Of a stretch of DNA of 64,000 bases, positions 1-64,000 are shown piece by piece. The first letter of the stretch is position 1; every line of letters begins with the position of its first letter. The translations under genes and the position numbers were made by a program. This stretch comes from Physcia stellaris (lineage: Eukaryota; Ascomycota; Lecanoromycetes; Caliciales; Physciaceae). The stretch is taken from contig JABSSW010000038.1 of assembly GCA_018902385.1 (NCBI GenBank), forward strand, positions 62,001 to 126,000, in the 5' to 3' direction. The notes beneath the pieces were generated by a model. The model was given only the letters and a program-made list of their open reading frames with translations. It had not been told where the DNA came from and did no database searches.

Positions 1-264
1 TATGTTCATGTCCCCAGCCCTGTCCATGCATCTACTCTCCCTGCTCCTCGTAACTCGAATCGCAATAAGTGAAAAACACCGATTTATCGTCTTCGTGTAA
101 AAGGCAAAAGCGCCAGAGAATCCCACCAAGAGAAAGGACATGCTATGCTTTCGTGAATGCTTCTTGTCCCCATGTAACAACCAACCTGCTATTTCCCCCA
201 GAATCCAACCTCTGTATCCGTCGCCACCCATCCGCAGTTCCCGAACGTTCTAAGATATGAAGAA

Positions 265-1338
265 TCAGTGGATCGTAAGCTGTCGCTGTGAGCGCCGGCC
301 ATGACGAGGACGCCAAGGGGGATCACGATACGGAAACCCGAGATCGTCTTCCAGGTCATGGCAAATGTCTGGCTCCAGCATAAGTTGCGAATCGTAAGGA
401 TCGAGGAACGAGCCCCCACCACCGTACATATACGGTACGTCTAACATAAGATCCTCCTCGTAGCCGTAAGGCTCGTGGGGAAACCCGAGGCCTGGAGGGA
501 CCGGCTGCCGATCAAGCGTCTCCAAAGTCCTTAAACAAATGTCGCGTACATCGTCCAAGTATAGAACATTCGGGTTTGGACGAGGGGACGATGGAAAGCA
601 TCCCTGGTGGGAATGTGGGCGACGTTCGAGTCGGGGTCGGTTTAGGCGCATATCGTGCAGCTCCAGGGCACTTCGATGCTGACGACGAGCCTTTGCGTTT
701 GATTGAGCCATCAAGCTCACCAAGATTCTATGGGACTTGGGACTTAGCGATTCCAGGCGCCTGTGGTCCGGCATCAAGAGTCCCCCAGTCTCTAAGCTGC
801 GGACAAGACAGGCTAGAGCGGGGGCCATATCGCATTTTCCATTGAGACTGATTTCATCCAATACAAATATGTAGAAAAGACCGTCGTGTGCGGCGAATAG
901 CTCCTCGTTATGTTTGAGGAAAAAGCCCTCCATCTGCTTGAACAGCTTGGGGCCGCATCCGAAAACTCTGGGGTGCAGCAATTTGCCCAGCGAGGCAAAG
1001 GTGTCTTGAGTAGCAAGGAATCCATTGTTATGCCGGCTGTGAGAACCAGCGAATAAAGCTTCAAGACCGTTTGTCAACGCGGCAGACACACGGTCCCGAC
1101 CGCCTACTTCTGAAAGATACTCGAAGAGTAAATTTAACGCCTTCTCACCCCCTGAATTCAGCTGGGGCGCTAGGTCCGACAAGGGTAAATTTCCGTAAGA
1201 TATCAATATTCTCCTCTCTCTGCGCCATAGTTCTGGCAAGTTTAGCGCGATAACTTTGCTCTGGACTTTGTGGTGGTGGCCATTATGTTCGAGGCAGATT
1301 GGAGCGCCAGGAGGGCGCTGGTTATGGAATCGTTGCAT
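265..1338 (-). CDS. Unknown protein, about 357 residues
   Basis: I do not recognise this protein. It is one open exon. I start it at the ATG at 1338 because that is the first ATG downstream of a TATAAAAG box at 1487-1480; the frame stays open further upstream but has no ATG. The N-terminus carries RPPGAPICLEH followed by a His cluster, which could bind metal and loosely recalls the GRPNGxPxTC motif of the family at 23-33 kb (weak). Residues about 40-190 are leucine-rich and probably helical. The last 100 residues are rich in Asp, Glu, Gly, Tyr and Pro. No signal peptide or clear membrane segment is visible. Length, TATA box and composition make it a credible gene, but no function can be assigned. 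Confidence 0.6.
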   Translation of the reverse strand: MQRFHNQRPPGAPICLEHNGHHHKVQSKVIALNLPELWRRERRILISYGNLPLSDLAPQLNSGGEKALNLLFEYLSEVGGRDRVSAALTNGLEALFAGSHSRHNNGFLATQDTFASLGKLLHPRVFGCGPKLFKQMEGFFLKHNEELFAAHDGLFYIFVLDEISLNGKCDMAPALACLVRSLETGGLLMPDHRRLESLSPKSHRILVSLMAQSNAKARRQHRSALELHDMRLNRPRLERRPHSHQGCFPSSPRPNPNVLYLDDVRDICLRTLETLDRQPVPPGLGFPHEPYGYEEDLMLDVPYMYGGGGSFLDPYDSQLMLEPDICHDLEDDLGFPYRDPPWRPRHGRRSQRQLTIH

Positions 1339-1479
1339 TCTTGCACAGAAAGGGGAGCAAGCAAGCAAGTCCAAGCAGCGTACGACCGTCAGAGCAGGAA
1401 AGGTTGCAAGAAGATGGGGCGGCGAACAGGACTGATCTGTGGCAATAGTAAAAGATCTGGAAAAGTAAATCTGGAGGAT

Positions 1480-1487
1480 CTTTTATA
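1480..1487 (-). promoter_or_regulatory. TATA box of the unknown gene at 265-1338
   Basis: TATAAAAG on the minus strand, about 140 bp upstream of the chosen ATG. The first ATG after it is the one at 1338, in frame with the long ORF. Confidence 0.5.
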
Positions 1488-3883
1488 GACTGACCTTAGG
1501 AAACTGCGGTGACACTACTAAAGTACAAACTTGAAAATGTGTTGGATGTGTGGGGCTTGGTGACCTGGTTTGCTTAAAGAGGCGTTCGCGTCACCTCAGC
1601 CAGCCTAGAGATAGAAGCAAACACGCTGACTTTGAGATGAAAGAGGTCATGCTACAGGACATACTTGGCTACGTGACCAAGGTGCATTAATTCCCAACTT
1701 ACTGAAGGCCTCGTCACTCGAGGTCGGAATAGTGGAAGAGTAAACGCATCGGCCCCGAAAATCGGAGGCGAGAACAGATCCCACCCGTCGAGAAGCAGCT
1801 GTCCGCGCAGTCTACGATTGGGTTCCTGCGGAAAGCCATTAGAGCCGGTTATCGGGATATGGTAGAGAGGAAGAGCACGCAGGCTCAGACGAGCAAAGCG
1901 TTCGACGAAATCCGTTGGGCGACCACCCAGGATTGGCTGATTCTGAACGGTTTGCTTCTGGCAACTTTAGTGGCGGCCTCAGCACAAACAGCCAAAGCAG
2001 ATTCGACAATGTCCTGATAGATCATCTTCTGAGCAATATCTTGATCGCATTTCGACCGGGGCCATCTCCGCCCCCTAGGTTTTGGGATGGAATGAGTGAA
2101 GGAGTCGTTAAGCAGTAGGAAACGACTTGGGATGAAAAGAATGTTGAGATACAACAGCTTCACTCCTGACCCCTCGGAGGGACTAGATCTTTTTATAGCC
2201 CTACATCTTCATCATGTGCCAAATTCCAATGCTCCCAAACTAATCTAGTGCCCATCTCGACCTGTGATGGAGTTGTGACCCAGTCTCAGGAACATTCGAT
2301 AGTAGAGAATGAAGTGTCCATGCATTGTGTCCGGTGTCAGCTGGTGAATCAATGACAAGGAGAAGAGAAGAGATGATGATGATGGATGAATAACTGTTTT
2401 AACAAGGATGAAGAGGAAGTGGGAAAGGGATTCTAATAAGAAACCGTGAACTTTGTATATCACCACCGGCGGATCAAAGTAGGGCCGTTGGGAGTTATGA
2501 CATCCTCTAAGTCAAGAACCCCCAACTCTTCCTCAGAACATGGACATCAGCATACCAGCCATCATACACTTCTTTATACAACATAGTCAATCCTTCAGCT
2601 ATCCTTCCTCTTGAGCTTCTTAGTTCCACAGCCCGGGCATCTCTTGACAACCGACGAGACTGCGCCATTGGTAGAACATCCACCCGTACTGGAGGAGTTG
2701 GAAACACCTTGGAGGTCTTGTGTGCGTTAGACCGTGGGCCTTCGCATCCCTTGTCGATGCCCTTTGCCGGGCAAGACTCAGCAGCTTTTTGCTCCTCTCT
2801 GTATAGCTGACAATGTCCACTCTGTCTCTCTGTCTTCATAGCCAAGGTGTGTCTCTGAAAAATATCGTTGCTAGATCTTGTGGCTAATATTTTGAACCAG
2901 CGCAGAGTAATATGTACTCATAATCAATATACAACGCTCACCCACACATACAACACTTATATAGCAAAGGACTCTTACCTACACGCTGGATACGCATACC
3001 CACTGCAGGTGTTATCTTAACAAACGCCTTATAGAGCTTCCAAGTAGCAAGGAAACATGGAAATTACCCCAATTTCTCATCAAGGAACATACAACAAAGA
3101 GGTCAATAGTCCTGTCATAGCTACAGTCCCACGACATATATAGGATCGTGCGATATAACCAGCTATTGAAGGGAAGTGAGGGGCAAGGTTAGGAGGACAA
3201 TCCTTATCCAACCCCGACTGATCCTTCGATGTTGAATCCGGAAACAAAGAACGAAAAATATATAACACTTACAAGACAATTTTCTCCGGTCTTACCCTTA
3301 TCAATATATAAGCATCACCTACCACACGAACCGGATCACCGTCGAAGAAATCTTCACGTCTTTCGAAATCAGTTTCCAAAGGATAAGAACGGTCTCCAAG
3401 GAGAGACTTGCGCTTCTGTAGTTCTAGTTGTGTCATCACATTTGATGGAAAGGAGTATGGAGGGAATCCTCTTTGATGGGGAGGGGCTCCTGTAAGGGTA
3501 CAACACCGATCAACCTTTGTGTGAGTCTAGTAGGCTTCAATCTTGGAGCTTGTGGAGAAGTGCGGCGCCGGCCTCATACCCTCGGACTTTTATCTGACCT
3601 TTGACACCGGACCGACAGGTAATCCACTTGAGGGTGAATATCAAGGCAGTGGGTCCGACCGTGAATAGAGCTGGGAGGGAGCGCTCATTCACTGTATGCC
3701 CAAAGAGGAAGGGAGCCACATTCTCGACTTCTTAAACCCGAAGACTTTCACCTCACTTCCTCCCTCTTCTCTATCATTTCCCACCGAGACTTGCAAGCTC
3801 CTCAGAATCAGCACAACGGGCCACTTTACCATCAAGCATAGAGTATTCCTTCCACCAAGCATTCTTCAAGAGCTTTTTACAAG
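1488..3883. other. Intergenic stretch, no convincing gene
   Basis: Only short open frames lie here. The best is 2507-2839 on the minus strand (about 110 residues, basic, with an ATG at 2839), but it shows no domain and no splice-supported partner exon, so I do not call it. Around 2880-3360 the sequence becomes more AT-rich. The last 150 bp before 3884 are pyrimidine-rich and are probably the promoter and 5' UTR of the AT-hook gene. Confidence 0.5.
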
Positions 3884-5587
3884 ATGTCTGCTCAAATTGA
3901 CAACACGGCTTCCGTGACTCCAGAAGGAGTTGAGAAGATGAAAGCTACGTCGAAGAATACTGAATCCGTCAACCCCGAGGAAGTCTCCAAACCCATCTCA
4001 GTCAACGGCGCCTCTGAGAGCGTAGAGATCAAGGCTAGCGCTGACAATGAGATGGAAGGTGGATCGAATGCTGTAAGTTCACATTTTCTGTTTGACACCC
4101 CACGATCACAACATTCCTACACCCACACCAGCACACGAAAGGTATTCGACTTGCACATTTGAGCGTTTCACCAATCCTCCTACGATTACCGGTAGAATAT
4201 CAAGACTATATGTAGTATCACACATATCTCCCCTGCCATCTCGTTTCTACAACACTCCAACACGGCAGTGCCTTCTATCATTTCCAGAATTTGGCTAATA
4301 CTTCTCCAGGACGCCATGAAAGAGAACGTCAAGGTTGACAAGGCTACCGCTTCAATTGACAAGAAGCGTGATAATGTCAATGGCGATGAGGAGAGCCCAA
4401 GCAAGAAGCAGCGCACTGAAACGAGCATCAAGAAATCTGCCAAAGCGGCAGGTGTGGCGGAGCCGTCTCCGAACAAAGGTCGTGGCCGCGGAAAAGCAGG
4501 CAAGAACAAGGCGAAGGGAGAAGCTGTAGTAGAAGAGTCCAATGACGTCGAAGCAGGCGACGCTGTCACTGCTCCCACAGCGCCACCCAAGAAAGGACCT
4601 GCCCCGGTAAAGCCGCTAACAACAAGATCAAGGAAGAAGCTGTCTCTGAGTCGAACGAAGGTGCCGACGAGGACAACAAGGAGGTTCATGTGCCAGCAAC
4701 TCCTGCGAAGAAAGGACGTGGCCGTCCCAAAGCGCCCATCACGCCCCCAAAAACCCCCAAGGCTAAAGCCTCTAAAGCTTCCAAAGTTGCCGTCAAACTT
4801 AATGAATCTGAAGGCGGCGACGGGACTGATGTTGCGGCCGAATCTTCTTCTGACGCTCAGCAACTTGCTTTAGCTGAATCATCTGCTGTTACAAAGAAAG
4901 GGACTCCTCGTAAGCGGGCAGCCACGGTCAAGACTGGGAAGACCATTCCTATCTCCTCCTCATACGAGACTGCCATCCCGGCAGACAAGATGATTGTGAA
5001 ATTGAAGGAAGAGGGGAAGTCGTGGAACGAGATCCGTATGAAGTGGACCGAGATGACGGGTCAAGAATCCAAAGGGTCGAGCTTGCCAAATCGCTACATT
5101 CGTCTCATTGCTAACTTCATGCACCTTTACAAGGGCGATGTGAGTGTTACTGCTGCACATATCGCATTCTTAACATGACAGCTAATATCATTTGATAGGA
5201 TGCACGTCTTCTTAATGCCGAAGCAAAAGTTACTGCCGACATCAACGCTGTTATCGCCCAGCTCAATGCCGAGAAGTGGCAAAAGGTGATGAAGTTGATG
5301 GAAGAAGACGGCACGACCCAGAAATATCCCACGATCTTTTGCAGAAAGAATTCGAGAAACTCGTTGCCAGTGGTATGACCGTCGACACCATCACCTCCGT
5401 ATCCGCATCTGACTCTGCCGACGATGTTACCACCGCCGCCACTACTACCAACGGTGAGGCGGCTACCAACGACAACATCAAGAAAGAAGACGGCGCAGAT
5501 GAAGAGATGGATGAAGCAGACGTTGCGGGTGAGCAAACCGGTCAAGACTACGACATGGACGAGGCAGCTGCTGAGGCTTCTTCCTAG
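3884..5587 (+). CDS. AT-hook / SANT-like nuclear protein, with two apparent frame breaks
   Basis: Likely a chromatin-associated DNA-binding protein. Exon 1 is 3884-4072. A GT-AG intron spans 4073-4309, exon 2 runs to 5139, a second intron spans 5140-5198, and exon 3 ends at 5587. Exon 2 has lysine-rich tracts with KGRGRGKAGK and KKGRGRPKAP, which are AT-hook-like. Residues beginning SSYETAIPADKMIVKLKEEG, through GKSWNEIRMKW and LPNRYIRL, form the fungal Myb/SANT-like domain that continues into exon 3. The tail is acidic (DEEMDEADVAGEQ). The frame changes by one base at the C run 4602-4605 and again at CCC 5328-5330. Both sides of each break read as good protein, so each looks like one missing C. 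With both sides counted the protein would be about 470 residues. A consensus error is the simplest reading; a decaying gene is the alternative. Confidence 0.7.
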
Positions 5588-10874: not shown

Positions 10875-13800
10875 ATGCCCAAAACCTCAAATACTTCCAA
10901 TACTTCGAACAGCCCCTCCACACCCAAATTTACGCCCTCAGAAACTCCGATACAATCCCACAATCACTCTCCACCAGACTTCAGCGACCTTGTTGCTGTA
11001 AAGATGGAGGAAACCAAGGCGGGAAGCTCGAATCTGAGGGAAGAGGTACAGCCTACCAAGACAGAGAACCCGGCGATGCAGACAGAGGTAAAACTGGCAG
11101 AAGCTACCGACGCTCAGAAGAAGAAGGCGGCGTGCAAGAAACATAACAAAACACACAAGAAGTCGAAGAAGCGGCCAAAAGCCAAAGAAGAGTCCAGTAG
11201 CAGCGAAGATTCTTCATCGTCTTCTTCTTCAGATACGGGCTCTAGTGATACCGAGGAGGAAGAGGAGGAGGAGGAGGAAGATACTGAAGAGGAAGAAGAC
11301 TCTGAAGAGGAGAGGAGGCAAAAGCGAAAACAGAAGCAAAAGGCTAAGAAAGCCAAGAAGCTGAAAGAAAAGAAGAAGGCTAAATCGCGAAAACACAAGG
11401 CTTCTAGTGATGAGGAATCAGAGTCCGAAGAGAGCGATGAGTCGAGCTCAGAAGAAGAAGATAAGCGGAAGAAGTCCAAGTCATCGAAAAAGAAGCGGTC
11501 GAAGAAGAAGCAACTTGAAGATCAAGATCAGGTGTCTATCCTCAAAGACCAACTTAAACTCCAACTCTTTGGAGCAAGAGCCGGTCGTGGTAGTACCAGG
11601 CGGAGAGCCGGTAAACAGCCAGTAATGGACGATCAAAAATTACTATTGAAGCAATTGCAGTCAAAGGGGAAGGGCAAGAAAAAACAGAAGCGAGGATCAA
11701 AGGCGGACTTCGTTAGGGTCGATCAGTTGTGGGACTCTTCAATACACAATTACAAACTCACAGAAACAGCCGAAGATGCCGATGCCGACGAATACGACCA
11801 GTATGTCTTCACTGTACGAAGGAAGTTTGATTGGGAGAACAAATACACGGACACGGTTGTTGATATCAAGAGTAAGCCTCTCAAAGAAGCCCTCACTCAT
11901 GTGATGGGCGCCGTAAAGGGTGTTTCTTTTGCGGAAGATACGCCCGTTATAGATCCCAACATGCTTTTCCTTTACCTCGAAGAACTCCGGACTCATATGA
12001 AGGAGCTTAAAGAGAAGAGCAAAACGGAGAAGAAAAAGAAGGCGAAGAAGCTCGCCACAGCAAAGGCTCAGCATGTAAAGGTTCTAGTCAAGTATCTTGA
12101 TAAGGATTACGCAGAGACGAAGAAAACCCTCTACCCACTTCTGGAATCTAACACCATCACTTTCGACCTTCTCTGGGCCCTGTTCAAGAGCAATGAGATC
12201 GCATACTGCCCAACATATTCCAACCCAGACGAGCCAAGAGCGTTCAAGATTGAATATGCTACAAAAGTACGATAGAGACATCCACATCGCCACCAACACG
12301 CTAACCTGTGTAATAGGAATCATCCTTCATGAAAGGTACATGGTACAACATCGAAGGTCGCTATCTTGAATACGACGGGAAGACCTTTGGTATGGGTACC
12401 ATGGAGGTGGAGGTTGAGCAGTTCAAGGGCCCTCGAAAAATCTCCAGTCTTGCTTGCTATCCTCTCAAATACCATAAAGATGCCGACACTCTCAAGCAGC
12501 AGCTGATAGAGCGGGGCAAGAAATTTGTTGCTCTCAAGGGTATGAATTACCGGTTTCACAAAGGAATGGGCTTCTACAAGAAGAAGAGGCAGGTTATCAA
12601 AGTCAACATCAACGGCCGAGTCATGGTGGACCCAGCAATACATAGGAGGATTAACCCTAACTATCCGATATCAACGGTTAAACCCAAGGATCCGGACATC
12701 ATTGACGAATCAGACGAGGAAGATGATGAGAGCTGCGGCTGCTGCGACAGCTCAGAGGAAGAGAACCAGAAACCACCAGACCAGCTTGCAGATGCCGACG
12801 AACCTCGAACCAAGATGAAGCTCGTAGTAGATGACAACCAGCGAACTCACATCGTCGAAGTTGAAGTCGACGAAAACGGCAATGAGATCCAGAAAGAAAA
12901 CATTGATCAACTCCCCGGCCAAGACCCGAACGCCTCATCAGAGCGCGAGTTCACAGAAGAAGAGCTCCTAATTGCCAGCCCTGTCGTCCTCGGTTTCGCC
13001 TTTTCCGAGAAACTCTGGCTCGAATTCACGGTCTCAGGCATCAATGACATCGACTGGAATGAAGGTGCCTTTAACTCGCTCGTCCTTCCAGACAACCAAA
13101 AATCCATCGTCAAAGCCCTCGTGGAATCGCACACCTTCCAAGCCTCCCGCAACATCGACGACGTCATCCAAGGCAAAGGTCGCGGCCTCGTCGCCGTGCT
13201 ACACGGTCCCCCAGGCACCGGGAAGACACTCACCGCAGAAGGGATAGCAGAATTGCTCAAATGCCCACTGTACATGGTGTCAACCGGCGAACTAGGCACC
13301 AACCCACGCGAACTAGAAGCCGAACTCAACAAAATCCTCGACATCGCCCACTCCTGGGGTGCCGTCTTACTGTTGGATGAAGCGGACGTCTTCCTCGAAA
13401 AGCGGAGCATCCAAGACATCCACCGCAACGCCCTGGTCTCCATCTTTTTGCGCCTGCTCGAATACTTCCAGGGCATCCTCTTCCTCACCACCAACCGCGT
13501 CGAGACCTTCGACGACGCCTTCCAATCCCGCATCCACGTCGCGCTGCGCTACGGCGAGCTCTCCCCCAAGGCGCGTCGTAGCGTCTGGAAGATCTTTTTG
13601 CAGAAAGTGAAGGAAAAGGATGGGCTCGACGTGGTGGAGTTTGGGGAGGAGGAGTACGCGAAGCTAGGACGCCACAATTTGAACGGGCGGCAGATTAAGA
13701 ACGCGGTACGGACGGCGCAGGCGTTGGCAGTGAATGAAGGTAAGGCGTTGGATATGGGACATATCGGGAAGGTGCTTGATGTGGCGGAGAGCTTTGAGAA

Positions 13801-57446: not shown

Positions 57447-58419
57447 TATCAGTGTAGGAAGGAGAGTATCTAGGTCTCGGAGGAATGGAAGTGGTCTCGA
57501 TGTAGGAATATGAGCAGTGCAAAGCAAGGGACGTCTGACCGTTTTGTTGGGGTAATTTCGAAGGCGACTTCTGCTTTTAATATGATGGTGAAACTGACCT
57601 GGAACTTGAATACCTTAACACTGAACAGGCGTGACGAAGAACCCGACTTATGAGAATTGTCCTTGTCGGGCTTTATCGAAGCCCGAACACATAGAGTGTA
57701 GCGTCGGAGCTTAGGATTTCCCGGATGACTAAGCCCGGTTACAGTAGCCCTATGAAGAAATTAGCTACTTTACTCGACCTTACGCGCTTCCTTGCTATGA
57801 GTCCCTATTGGTGGTCTATAGACAATTTCTCTACGGCAAATACTTCACGTTGTCTGAAGAAACAAGCCCAGTTTATCTAGTCAGCTTGTCGTTGTATCTA
57901 AGACGTGATCAGTAATTGGGGTCATAATGCGATAGCTCTGAGGACGCCATAAACGCATCATCGCTTTTCATCTTGAGGTATGTGATTTCATACGTATGTC
58001 GGTAGACGAGGTAAGGTATATGTCAATCGAATGTACAATCCATTGCAGCGATCTCTTTTGGGACGCTCTCCCTCCAATCCTCGCCAGGAATCAAGCATGG
58101 CGTGTGCAGGCTTTCCAAACCCGGCTGCCCAGGACACCCTGCTCATTGCCGGAGAGCTACATATGCATAACGCAGAAGCGGCTCCAACGCATCATAAGAG
58201 CTATTCAAGCCGTAATTCCGCATTTAGTGCCTTTCTAAGTAAACTGTTACCCGTGCTTCGGGGCTAATGTTCGAATGGAAGGAAATTAGCTGGGCCAGCC
58301 AAGCGTGCATCGATCCTCATTCGGACGCGGCTACTGTTATCTTACTACGATTTTGCTACCTTGTCCGCTGGCAGACATCCATAGCGTCGAAGGGTTTCTA
58401 CGTACTCATCGCGGCAATC
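57447..58419. other. Divergent spacer between the transporter and the Zn(II)2Cys6 gene
   Basis: Shared upstream region of a transporter (-) and a transcription factor (+), a layout often seen when the factor regulates the pump. No ORF of note. The long ORF that starts at 58267 only gains an unlikely N-terminal extension. Confidence 0.5.
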
Positions 58420-58554
58420 ATGTCGATGAAGTTACCTACACCAGAGACGATTGTCACAGACACGACTCCGACCTCAAGCCAATCCTCCCGACCTTCCAAA
58501 TCACAACGGGTGCTTGCGTGTGTAAGCTGTCAGCAGCGAAAGCTGAAGTGTGAG
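58420..58554 (+). pseudogene. Zn(II)2Cys6 transcription factor, first exon only
   Basis: ATG at 58420 gives MSMKLPTPETIVTDT, a Ser/Thr/Pro-rich lead, then KSQRVLACVSCQQRKLKC, which is the first half of a binuclear zinc cluster (C-x2-C-x6-C). A donor GTGTGA|GTAAGT ends the exon at the position where fungal zinc-cluster genes often have an intron. The expected second exon, with the remaining three Cys, is not found in the 370 bp before the AT-rich block at 58930. The regulatory and middle-homology regions are absent. It is a 5' remnant, probably cut off by the arrival of the element at 58930, and the likely former regulator of the neighbouring transporter (inference). Confidence 0.7.
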
Positions 58555-58929
58555 TAAGTCACGAGTTCTTGTTCCCCCTCCTGTTTATTGCTTCTGGTTA
58601 TCCCATGGTCTGGTGTGGTGCGATTTTAACTTTCACGCATCGCCACTCTATGCCCACTGTGACGAGACATGGACCCGTCCTTGGTACATAGTATATGAAG
58701 ATGACGTTTGGGAAACATCATCTTCTGATTACATCCCAAATCGGGTAATCAGAGGTCTGTCATGGTAGATGCAGTACCAGGCCATGGAATATACTTCAAA
58801 AGTGAATAGAGTACTCTGGTCCTAAAGCCATTGACATCATGCCATGGAACCTAAGTGGAGATGACGCTAATCACGGAGACTCCTTCAGTCGCAAATTTCC
58901 CTGCTTTAATCGTCCAGGCTAGACATGGG
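58555..58929. other. Spacer between the zinc-cluster remnant and the AT-rich block
   Basis: Normal composition up to the GGG at 58927-58929, then an abrupt switch. No second exon of the zinc-cluster gene is recognisable. Confidence 0.5.
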
Positions 58930-61900
58930 TGCTAATGCAGAGATGACGAAATGAAAAAGACTTGAAAAAATTGATCTTTTAATTAAATAAAAGATTAATG
59001 TTTCATTCATTTCATTTCTCATTTTTCGTTTTTTTTTTTGCAAATATTTGCAAAAGTCAATTGTAAAAACTTTTACATCAATTTTTGATGTAACATATTT
59101 CAATTTTTCGATTTTCGCACATTTTTTGATGTAATATTTCGTTCGATTTAATTAAGACTCGATTTCATTGTTTTTTCGTCGTCGCAATATGAACATCAAA
59201 TTCAATTTCGTTTCAAACAAAAACAATGTCGTTGTCGTCAAAAAAAGCAATGACAACGATGCATTCAAATTCAAACAAATTGTTCGCAAACGAATCACAT
59301 TCGAAATAAAAAATCGTATTCGAATTGACAAAAATACACGTTTTCGTTTCATTTCGAAACGTTCGTTTTTTCAAAAATTCGTCAATTTTCGTCGCAAAAT
59401 CTTTTTTTCGTTTGAACATTTCGAAAATTAAATCGAAAATCTCGACGATTTCGACGTTCACGACGATTTCGAATTCATCGACGTAAACGACAACGACGCA
59501 TTCGATTCATTTCAAACTCGACGATCACGCGCGAAAACGACAAAAATTCAAAATTTGAAAAAATATCATGTTGATTTTCGTCGTCAATTGAAAATCAAAA
59601 AAATGAAAAAACAATTGAATATTAGTTTTACTCAACGTACGTTGTTTTTTTTTTCACATTTTTTCAATTTTTTGCTCGTCGTGTTTTTTGCGCTCGAACA
59701 TCAAAATCTCTATTTTCAAAACGTGTTTTTTTTTCACGATTTGATCAATTCATACGTTGATTCATCGAATTCATGAATTTTCATCGAACACGTTGTGTTC
59801 ACGACGAAAATTCGTACGAGTTTTTTGCTCAACAACAATTTCGAATATTCGAAAATCGAAAGAAAATTTCTCAACGTGTCGTTACGTTTATTCAAAAAAA
59901 TATACAACGATTCGTTGAAATTCAGAAATTTTTCGAAATTTTTTTTTTGAACGACGTTCAATGTTTCTGTCGACGCACGTGCAAAAATCTTTAAAAATTT
60001 TTCATTTTTGTTGACGTCATTGAAAATGTATTGCAATGTGATGTTCGATTTTGCTCATTCGAACATTCGATACGAATTGATTTATTTCATGAATCAATAT
60101 CGTTTTCGCATTTTGAAAACATATTTTTACAAAACGTGATCATCGATTTTGATTTGACATGAAAAAAATTTGATTCGAATCATACGCACGAATCAAAATA
60201 TCGTTATCAATTGAATTATCAAACATGATATTATCGAGTGAATGTTCAAAAATATCGTCGTTATTGAATTCAATCAAAAATCGACGATTTCGCAATCGTT
60301 TTTTATTTCACGTACGATCAAAAAAAAACTCGATCGTTTGACAATCAATAACGAAATTTGTCACGCGTTCAATAACAACAATCGTTGCGAATTTGAGTTT
60401 TGCAAATAAAAACATGTTTGCATCAAATGTCAACAATCAAATCATGACAATTTCGAATGTTTCGAAATCAAAATCGTTAAATGATTGATCGATGCGTTTT
60501 CTTTTGATTTTTTTTTTTTTTTTTTTTTTCTTTATTTTCGTAAAATGATCATGTCGACGTCGATCGAATGATCGTCAAAGAAATTTTCATATGACGTCGT
60601 TCTCGACAATGTTTTCAAGTTCGAAATCAAAATGTCATTGAAAATCAAAACATGAAAATTTTATTTATTAAAACATTTCGATCAACATTTTGTTTCGAAA
60701 TTGCTTGACATTATTAAACGAAACGTCAACGTCGAATATATCGAAAATAAAAAATTTTTTGTTTTTATCAATCATCGTTCGATCAACGAAATTTTCGATA
60801 TATTGATTGTCGATTTCAACAAACAATTGACTGCTCAACGAATGTCTAGAATGTTTTTTTCTTTTTTTTCAGATTACGTTTGCTCGTTTCTAAATCTGAT
60901 TTTCAAGCACGACGACGAATGAAAACGTATTCACGATCTTTCGTATTTTAAAAATAATTCAATCAATGAAAACATCATCGAAAATGCAAAAATTCTGAAA
61001 TACGTCACGTTCGATGAAATCGTTGCAATATTCATATTTCAAGAACGAGATGCTGTTATGTTCAAAAAGAATTTCGTCAATGCATTCAGACACATTTCGA
61101 TGATTTTTTTGAATCGTTGATTATTCGATTTCGAATGAATGAAAATGTATTATATGAAATTGTTTTTATCGTTCGATTTACGTATTGTTTTCTTTTTATT
61201 CGATTTATTTGTTAAAACGTTGCATTGAATTTTGATCGAAATTTACGAATTTCGCATAATTTTTCATTATTTAAACGATTTTTTGATTATCATGAAATTT
61301 CACACGAATTCGAAATCGTTTAAGAAAAAATGACAAAATATTTGTCAAATTTTCGATTTCGAAACGAATCAAAAAAAAAAAATTTTGATACGAAATTCGA
61401 ATTTTTAAATATCGAATTCGATAACGAAATCATGAAAATCAAATTTTCTTCAACAAAATTGACGAAAACAATGAAATTTGTCAACGAAATTCTCATCAAA
61501 AAGTTTTTCACGTATCGTCAAATCGATTTTCTCGTGAATTTTCTGTCATTTTGCACGAGAATCGTCATTTTTGAATGTTTTTTTTTCATTTCATTTTATA
61601 TCGCTCGAAATCGAATTCGAAACGTCAACAAATTTTGCAAAATTATCGAAACAATGCGTCTGAATTTGCAATGATGACAAACGTTTTTATTTCAATGAAA
61701 CGACATTAAAATTTTGCGAGCGATTTCATTTCGATTTTTCAATCATATATGAACGAACGTTTCAAATAATTGAAACATAGAAAATTTTTGACTTCGTAAT
61801 CGTCAGAACGATTTTTTCGAAAAATTCAATTTACGATATTCAATTCGTTATCGTAATCGAACGTTCGATATTCAAATCAAAAAAATGCGAATCGTGTTGA

Positions 61901-64000
61901 AAGTTTTTCGTCAATAATTATTTCATTTCGTGAATAACAAAATCATCATTCATTGCGACAATTAGATCGTCTGTTTTGAATTCACGAAAAACACGATACA
62001 CGATTCAGCAATGACATCGTTTCGAAATGTCGTCATGCTATTCGCTTTTCACGATATTATCGTTGAAATGAAATGATTAAATTCGAAGTTCAATCATTTG
62101 ATTGATTTATTTTCGCGAGATGAACACGATAAAATCGTTGACGAGTATTCACAATTGCAAATTCGTCATGATCAATTCGCGAATTAAATTTCGCATTCAG
62201 CGACGACGTTTCAGAATATTGATATATTCAAATTTCGTTGAGCAGAATGACAGCACGTTTTCTGTGATGAAATTTGATTTCGAATATTCGCAAAATTTAC
62301 AATTTCGCAATCAAATCATACGTGAAATTTTGCGCATTTGATGATTTTCAAACATTTTTTTTTAACATTTTCGTTATCGATGATTGAATGAATTCGTTGA
62401 ACATAAAACGATTCAAATCGAAAATTATCAAAATTTACATCACGACATTACGTTTTGTTTGTGTGAATCGAAAATATTTCGATTTTAACGTTTTCAACGA
62501 ATTTTTGTTATAACGCGAAATCGATGAAATCAAACGTATGTATGAAAAAAGCGAAAAACGTGAAAAAAAAATTATTACTCGTGATATTTTGCTAGATATT
62601 TTGCAGTTTTTCGATATTCGTATCAAAAAAAATGCAACGTTGCACGTCGCATTTTGTTTGATTTTTGCAAATTTTTTGCGTATAAATGAATTTATTTGAT
62701 CAAATGTTGATCGTATTTTCGAATTCAACAAATGAAATGTTATTCGTTTTTCGATGATTTTTTTCGATGATCATTTCATTTTAATTCTTTTTGTTTCGAA
62801 AATCGATTCATTTCGCAAAAAAATTTCGATATTCATTGCGATCATCAACGATGTCGTTTGTGCGATGATTTCATTACGCAATTTTTTCGAACGTTTTTCT
62901 GTTTCGACATTTTTTTTTCTATTTCAAATCGATCAATCAAAATTTTTCAATGCAAATTACGTCATCATCGTGCTACGTAAAGTGATTATAAATCTGAGTT
63001 TCGAAAACAATTATTCAAATCATTTTTTTCGACGAAACGTTGCAATTGAGATTCGCAATGCGAACGTTTTTGACGATTTGATCAAACTTTTAAAAAGATG
63101 AAAATATCATGAGTCGTGTTTGAATAGACGTATTATTGATTAGCTAAACGAAGACAATAAGTCTGCAGAAACAAGTATGTACAAAATGATGAAATTGTAA
63201 ACAGTGTGCGAACGTCAAATCTCAAATCACGCTAATCTCGTCAAAGAATTAAAACATAATTCGATTCAAACATATTTGTTTAATCATTTATCATATCAAT
63301 TATCTATTTGTCAAATCTATTTGTCAGACATGTTCGTAACATTATTTTCTTTTTTTCGCGAACGTCGTCTCGACGATTCGTTGTTGTTGCGAAATTTGAA
63401 AATCTTGTTGAGAATCTTGCTAATCAAATTGTATGACTGCAAAATTCAGAAATTTCACGATCATCATTTTTCATTTTCTAATATTTTAGTGTCATCTCAA
63501 CGTTCGATAAAATTTGACGACAATTTCTGAAAATGTTTTTGACACGATTCAGTTTTTCATGCGATGTAAATTTTGATTGTAAATAACATCGAAAAGATAA
63601 TAAAGATTGAACTGTTGAATAAAAATCGTGAAATCAAAAACAAATGAATGAAAATTGAATTCGTGACGTCAAATGCTAATCGAAAATAACTTCGATTAAT
63701 GTTAACATGACGATTTTTTTTCGAAAGCGACGACGACTCGCTGAGAAATCTGATTCGTTGACGACGATTTGAAATATTGAAATCAACGTTTTGAACGATT
63801 CTGAATTTGCTGTCGTGAAATGAATACGATGAAAATCGTTCATCACGTCGCGAACATTATCGAATTTTTCGTTATCGACATAATATCACGTTCGATCATG
63901 AAATCAGCTCGATCAATTGACACGATATTGAAAACGATTGTAATGATATCGAAATTTCAAAATATCGTTCATTTTCATTCGAAGTTCTCGTTGACTATGA
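58930..64000 (+). mobile_element. Relic tyrosine-recombinase retroelement (DIRS/Ngaro-like), heavily decayed, running off the window
   Basis: A fossil, not functional: dozens of breaks over its length. Recognisable parts in order on the plus strand are a Cys/His cluster around 60.36-60.47 kb, a reverse transcriptase/RNase H region at about 60.7-62.1 kb, and a tyrosine recombinase with the C-terminal H-x-x-R region near 63.0 kb. RT plus tyrosine recombinase without an LTR-type integrase is the DIRS-order arrangement. I saw no terminal repeats; the right end is beyond 64000 or near 63.6 kb. The left edge is sharp at 58930. The block is strongly AT-rich, with no CC or GG anywhere. Age: old enough for saturation of the mutation process, but homology is still readable. 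Confidence 0.65.
60510..60529. repeat. Poly-T run in the relic element
   Basis: An uninterrupted run of about 20 T inside the AT-rich block. Confidence 0.9.

Follow-up and report, generated by a model that had tools for sequence, protein, structure and literature searches.

Transposons of the lichen fungus Physcia stellaris carry C-to-T changes at cytosine before pyrimidine, probably left by a defence resembling repeat-induced point mutation

Repeat-induced point mutation (RIP), in its RID-dependent Neurospora form, changes C to T on both strands, is confined to repeats with sharp edges, and goes with RID-like and DIM-2-like genes; RIP-like defences are described as sharing a preference for CpA (Badet and Croll 2025). 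In the sections cited here, Monilinia shows CpA changes plus CpC-to-TpT double changes, and CpA, CpT and CpG signatures have been reported, with CpT in Botrytis, Sclerotinia and Magnaporthe (Amselem et al. 2015, PMC4352252); RIPCAL analyses have also reported prominent CpT changes, both for Neurospora Tad1 (PMC2621366) and for control fungi capable of RIP (PMC7882544), so targeting of CpT has precedents. Here we describe a block without a single CC or GG at the end of a 64,000-nucleotide stretch of the Physcia stellaris genome (contig JABSSW010000038.1, C38:62001-126000; hereafter the window). Judged by its sequence, the block is a stack of transposons, a repeated tyrosine-recombinase-like element carrying an inserted Ty3/gypsy element. 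The Neurospora-type features listed above recur, but the process prefers CpC and CpT, spares CpA and CpG, and leaves index values that point away from RIP.

The genomes of Botrytis, Sclerotinia and Magnaporthe hold one or two RID genes and share CpT as a target, but there CpT joins CpA, and CpC goes unmentioned in the main text of the source (PMC4352252), whereas the Physcia pattern is led by CpC and spares CpA. RIP in another lichen fungus, Cladonia rangiformis (PMC12542154), has in common with Physcia a sharp boundary between genes and transposable elements (TEs) and homologues of RID and DIM-2; its TEs fall to 10-20% GC, whereas the AT-rich blocks of Physcia mostly lie at 22-33%, as expected if CpA and CpG are spared, and the RIP section of that paper gives no dinucleotide context. 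The TpCpG mutation of Microbotryum (cited in PMC4352252) is likewise a TE-directed C-to-T change outside CpA, but in a CpG context and in a basidiomycete. An earlier reading of the window from its letters alone (the sequence-only reading) had brought up basidiomycete variants for comparison, which do not apply here, as the host is a lichen-forming ascomycete whose genome holds two RID-like genes and a single DIM-2-like one. We met no description of mutation led by CpC and sparing CpA in the available text of the open-access literature searched, and the words RIP and repeat-induced are absent from the accessible text of the Physcia stellaris genome paper (PMC7513301).

The block fills the last 5,071 bases of the window, and an exact count there (A 1726, C 765, G 712, T 1868) gives zero CC and zero GG, just as the sequence-only reading had stated; its placement of the last preceding GG at 58928-58929 was also right. 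From the block's own base counts about 115 CC and 100 GG are expected, together about 215, so the earlier figure of roughly 146 was too low, because C and G make up 15.1% and 14.0% of the bases and not 12 percent. The base following the 765 cytosines is A in 329 cases, G in 355 and T in only 81; both CpT and ApG are strongly depleted (observed/expected 0.29 and 0.27), CpG and CpA stand at 3.31 and 1.26, and TpA is low at 0.34, the opposite of classical RIP. All 59 one-kb windows starting at positions 1 to 58001 contain both CC and GG (25 to 131 each), scattered around expectation. The block overruns the window end by about 6.3 kb: in a 10-kb piece that spans this end (L009), the first CC/GG lies at L009:6473 (C38:129372), isolated ones come after, and the last long free run stops at L009:9422.

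The genome searched (44.0 Mb in 147 contigs) contains unmutated copies in two retrotransposon families, so the base changes can be read directly. For the gypsy family the references are L034 (G000:C5:1165021-1168497) and L035 (G000:C12:58812-62288), which are 95% identical, have 52-53% GC and open frames of 1,024 and 1,151 codons, and are relatives of the mutated copies rather than proven ancestors. Between the two, C/T and G/A differences occur across all contexts, with a slight excess at CpY (Y, pyrimidine). Compared with them on both strands, the gypsy copy in the block, whose compared segment holds no CC or GG, is changed at 273/302 CpC and 222/301 CpT sites, and at only 22/303 CpA and 19/313 CpG sites. 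Two younger copies show the order of preference more sharply: in C95 the changed sites are CpC 268/347, CpT 137/322, CpA 4/330 and CpG 2/352, and in C51 CpC 313/349, CpT 163/323, CpA 5/328 and CpG 3/352, leaving 65 CC plus 9 GG in the former and 14 plus 7 in the latter. Pooled, these amount to CpC 581/696, CpT 300/645, CpA 9/658 and CpG 5/704, a CpC rate about 60 times that of CpA, in two related copies that have most of their mutations in common and are hence not independent. The bases at -1 and +2 have modest effects in these copies; across the four 5' bases the rates range from 0.78 to 0.90 for CC and from 0.32 to 0.52 for CT, and it is the 3' base that decides.

The second family gives the same picture, with 94-99% of CpC, 80-87% of CpT, 6-11% of CpA and 3-5% of CpG changed in four mutated copies relative to L033, a reference of unmutated composition (51% GC) with a stop-free RVT_1 match, though with longest frames of just 441 and 321 codons it may not be intact. 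In one of the four (C85), 863 changes are C>T or G>A, 33 are transitions in the reverse direction and 14 are transversions. Within the block's own element, repeat B1 (mutated) differs from B2 (nearly unmutated) at 35/161 sites, of which 32 are CpY-to-TpY or the complement, and a five-copy alignment of the tyrosine-recombinase-like element varies at 238/240 CpT columns. The rule is thus C before a pyrimidine to T, CpC more than CpT, on both strands, with a weak effect of the 5' neighbour. The sequence-only reading had proposed a comparison with the least mutated repeat members and had expected C-to-T change at CpC on both strands until none was left; near-exhaustion of CpC and the involvement of both strands held, while targeting of CpC only is ruled out by the CpT changes in the block's gypsy copy.

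Beyond the block we examined 20 pieces of 10 kb (L009-L028), a non-random sample chosen around element copies and divided into 400 windows of 500 nt. In the 159 windows below 32% GC, 131 have no CC or GG at all (median 0, maximum 17), against a median of 55 in the 209 windows at or above 42% GC; AT-rich blocks with ordinary CC/GG, the observation named beforehand as telling against a CpC-directed process, are therefore not what this sample holds. Pooled observed/expected values in the AT-rich windows are CC 0.03, CT 0.24, CA 1.24 and CG 3.39. Over these 79.5 kb, TpA/ApT is 0.37 and (CpA+TpG)/(ApC+GpT) is 1.33, where RIP is called at TpA/ApT of at least 0.89 and (CpA+TpG)/(ApC+GpT) of at most 1.03 (PMC2621366, the second formula being partly garbled in that source's threshold line), so both standard RIP indices point away from RIP in the AT-rich sequence of this genome. 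The in-frame stops agree: 150 of 527 RVT_1 candidates were scored, and the 146 rows used (four others had no stops) contain 250 TGA, 33 TAA and 3 TAG. TGA is in excess because GG-to-GA change makes TGA from TGG and leaves CAA and CAG intact, whereas CpA mutation would make TAA and TAG from CAA and CAG. The pattern is real, mutational and widespread within the sample.

The newest mutations bear on how the changes are made. C95 and C51 have 446 mutated sites in common, against 164 expected if they were independent. Of the 86 mutations found in C51 only, 74 are C-to-T and 12 G-to-A, and 84 fall within columns 87-920 and 2116-2386 (strand bias p = 2e-5 relative to the sites that remained available in C95); the 15 found in C95 only are every one G-to-A. 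Within the C51-only stretches, C95 is mutated in three 300-column bins at 1/26, 1/29 and 0/41 of top-strand sites, and at 17/26, 28/35 and 27/35 of bottom-strand sites. Such single-strand tracts, seen here in one pair of copies, point to an enzyme working along one strand at a time and argue against slow scattered deamination and against gene conversion. At 15 boundaries of blocks longer than 2 kb with a normal-GC outer flank, the first 250 nt outside hold a mean of 20.7 CC/GG at 42% GC, the next 22.1, and those farther out 24-30. Spill-over into single-copy DNA is thus slight at most, and at the boundaries examined the mutations are confined to duplicated sequence, with sharp edges.

A PF00145 profile search of the genome returned four matches, which belong to three loci: two genes resemble RID and one resembles DIM-2. 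Genes like RID and Dim-2, for which the sequence-only reading had proposed a search, are therefore present. We take the solved relative of the C3 gene, 9bap, to be a DIM-2. RID-A and RID-B both keep a PCQ motif, and EET (RID-A) or EQT (RID-B) replaces the ENV of other methyltransferases, motifs that we presume to have their usual meaning in this family. RID-B is identical over 100% of its length to a database Physcia stellaris protein, and a search of solved structures with it returned distant methyltransferases only. The name RID follows from likeness to Aspergillus DmtA, which has been called similar to RID (PMC7862722). A 36-row tree places RID-B among other Lecanoromycete RIDs in a starred group of 13, and RID-A pairs with a Heterodermia protein (100/100), away from that group; second paralogs are present in Teloschistes and Caloplaca as well and group elsewhere. 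Usnea florida, Alectoria fallacina and Lecanora helva occur only in the RID-B list (best 120 matches per list, dependent on annotation). A PF00383 deaminase-domain profile had 8 matches in the genome; one (G000:C64:178666-179121) has four in-frame TGA and may be a mutated duplicate gene or an intron-bearing gene. An APOBEC_N profile had no match in the genome, and detected none of 14 controls either.

On this basis, the block probably represents nested transposons hit by a RIP-like defence aimed at C before a pyrimidine (CpC > CpT), on each strand separately: C-to-T transitions dominate on both strands, and a RID homologue is present. Such a defence would turn the first C of CC or CT into T in repeats, nearly to exhaustion at CpC, and spare CpA and CpG; the mutation would be the work of a protein of the RID family, or of RID and DIM-2 jointly, presumably, by analogy with Neurospora, during the sexual phase. 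RID-A, of Physcia and Heterodermia, might be the source of the changed specificity, which is the most tentative step of the scheme. Several observations weigh against it. The five-copy alignment also varies at 131/469 CpA and 76/560 CpG columns, some CpA is lost in old copies (the 6-11% given above), and CpT change in the young copies is less frequent after a G (0.32 vs 0.49-0.52). L034 and L035, longer than 3 kb, are both unmutated in spite of their similarity, so escape from mutation is possible; B2, of 161 bp, is nearly unmutated despite belonging to a repeated element and having a saturated partner in B1, and keeps 2-6 CC/GG in three of seven other copies. Finally, the branch leading to RID-A and its Heterodermia partner is long and their wider position unsure, and given the long branches in this tree we make no claim on the origin of RID-A.

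An alternative that we consider unlikely is DIM-2-type, CpY-preferring methylation of silenced repeats followed by ordinary deamination of 5-methylcytosine in vegetative growth, without premeiotic RIP. The genome has a DIM-2-like gene, a mitotic route exists in that dim2 of Zymoseptoria tritici promotes mitotic C-to-T change at CpA (PMC8016269), and a 2026 review assigns Neurospora DIM-2 a CpT preference (PMC13297926); neither of these published preferences, as given in the parts of the sources cited, is CpC over CpT with CpA and CpG spared, the newest mutations lie in single-strand tracts and not scattered over both strands, and CpC saturation and the sharp repeat edges also speak against it. 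Highly improbable is editing of retroelement DNA by an AID/APOBEC-like cytosine deaminase, the other process that the sequence-only reading had offered beside a RIP-like one of unusual specificity. The single-strand C-to-T tracts do, we believe, resemble deaminase footprints, but enzymes of this type choose their sites by the 5' neighbour, whose effect here is only modest beside the strong 3' effect, and both strands are mutated; the RIP-like part of that proposal, and its unusual specificity, stand. Classical CpA-directed RIP, suggested by the ruined, AT-rich repeats of an ascomycete that has RID-like genes, has a negligible chance given 9/658 CpA against 581/696 CpC sites changed in the young copies and the two index values. 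Equally negligible is compositional drift, low complexity or misassembly, the last a general risk with AT-rich repeats: coherent reading frames persist with TGA read as W, the spectra are context-specific with few transversions and agree among several copies, and two contigs of 30-33% GC with a gypsy-like pol from other assemblies (L050, L051) keep CC at 1.27-1.28 of expected.

The features are collected in the table. Full-length copies of the tyrosine-recombinase-like element (e.g., in L013, L015 and L017) match element positions 1-4176 and 10885-11466, and so span the insertion. Its tyrosine-recombinase identity, like the zinc knuckle, is our assumption from motif likeness, the latter without a family match; a Pfam search with three of its frames gave no match. 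With its split repeats (58930-63105 plus window-equivalent 69814-70503), we presume that it may be a DIRS/Ngaro-like or Crypton-like variant. It was found at 29 genomic places, and none of the 17 inspected, the window's own included, holds an unmutated copy. Two frames of the inserted gypsy element, with TGA read as W, contain reverse transcriptase, RNase H and integrase zinc-binding domains (Pfam). In the flank adjoining the block, at about 58510-58554, the window read by eye gives VLACVSCQQRKLKCE, which to us resembles the start of a Zn2Cys6 transcription factor gene.

Table. Features of the window and its continuation, and candidate methyltransferase genes (window-equivalent, numbering continued past position 64,000)
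Feature	Position	Strand	Remark
Unmutated flank	58001..58929	.	CC/GG density normal up to GG at 58928-58929
CC/GG-free transposon block, 29% GC	58930..64000	.	extends past the window to about C38:132.3 kb (window-equivalent about 70.3 kb)
Left part of repeated tyrosine-recombinase-like element	58930..63105	+	recurs in other copies
Terminal repeat A1	58930..59040	+	93% identical to A2 (window-equivalent 70140-70250)
Repeats B1 / B2 of tyrosine-recombinase-like element	window-equivalent 69957-70117 / 70343-70503		with A1 and A2 form split direct repeats, A1..B1-A2-B2
Zinc-knuckle-like reading KHVCIKCQQSNHDNFECFE	60410..60466	+	frame with TGA as W
Open frame with TGA as W, tyrosine-recombinase-like	62514..63143	+	continues beyond the gypsy insertion point
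Long terminal repeat (LTR) of inserted Ty3/gypsy element, 239 bp	63103..63341	-	92% identical to LTR at window-equivalent 69575-69813
Gypsy interior, start	63342..64000	-	segment compared with unmutated copies: window-equivalent 64537-67210 = C38:126537-129210
RID-A	C6		RID-like; 513 amino acids after removal of two introns
RID-B	C5		RID-like
DIM-2-like gene	C3		best solved relative 9bap, 608.6 bits, labelled DNA (cytosine-5-)-methyltransferase

The footprint appears to extend into public protein sets. The mutated gypsy frame matched 1,270 database proteins, and as the query was itself mutated, the best 120 listed speak for existence and not for frequency. Glycine plus proline make up less than 1.5% in 106 of these 120 (mean G 0.07%, P 0.08%); 8 proteins have normal and 6 have intermediate values. 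Compared with the 8, the 106 show no clear reduction in W, H, M, C and Q. Among the first 50, depleted proteins have 0-1 G and 0-5 P at the glycine and proline positions of L034 and retain the majority of W; H, M, C and Q are almost all retained in close ones and about half retained in distant ones, as in distant normal matches. Since TGG contains GG, the W in depleted proteins would imply a source translation with TGA as W. Long, tryptophan-bearing open reading frames poor in glycine and proline are thus apparently mutated gypsy elements to which gene callers applied genetic code 4 (TGA = W). Clustering at 60, 70 and 80% identity divides the 106 into 4, 6 and 13 groups. Viral contigs scanned with one listed gypsy-like relative (P0274) and with a second query gave no match; a scan of contigs from bacterial genomes gave 13 loci (L045-L057) with a gypsy-like pol, apparently eukaryotic contaminants in bacterial assemblies, with normal CC/GG in 13/13, which serve as controls only.

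Tentatively, and with somewhat less than even confidence, we propose that in Physcia, and also in several other fungi that metagenomes alone have revealed, the target of a RIP system has shifted from CpA to CpC/CpT, perhaps via a diverged RID paralog, that standard indices miss the process, and that gene callers applying code 4 fill databases with glycine- and proline-free reverse transcriptases. RIP surveys rely on CpA/TpA indices or on k-mers taken as CpA signatures, and the CpA/TpA indices barely register a process specific for CpY; the predicted annotation artefact is that code-4 "proteins" of this kind are mutated fungal transposons. Catalysis by RID in vitro is still listed as undetected in the cited part of a 2026 review (PMC13297926). 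A natural change of target site, together with a small set of methyltransferases (two RID-like, one DIM-2-like), would offer a way to ask which protein picks the RIP site.

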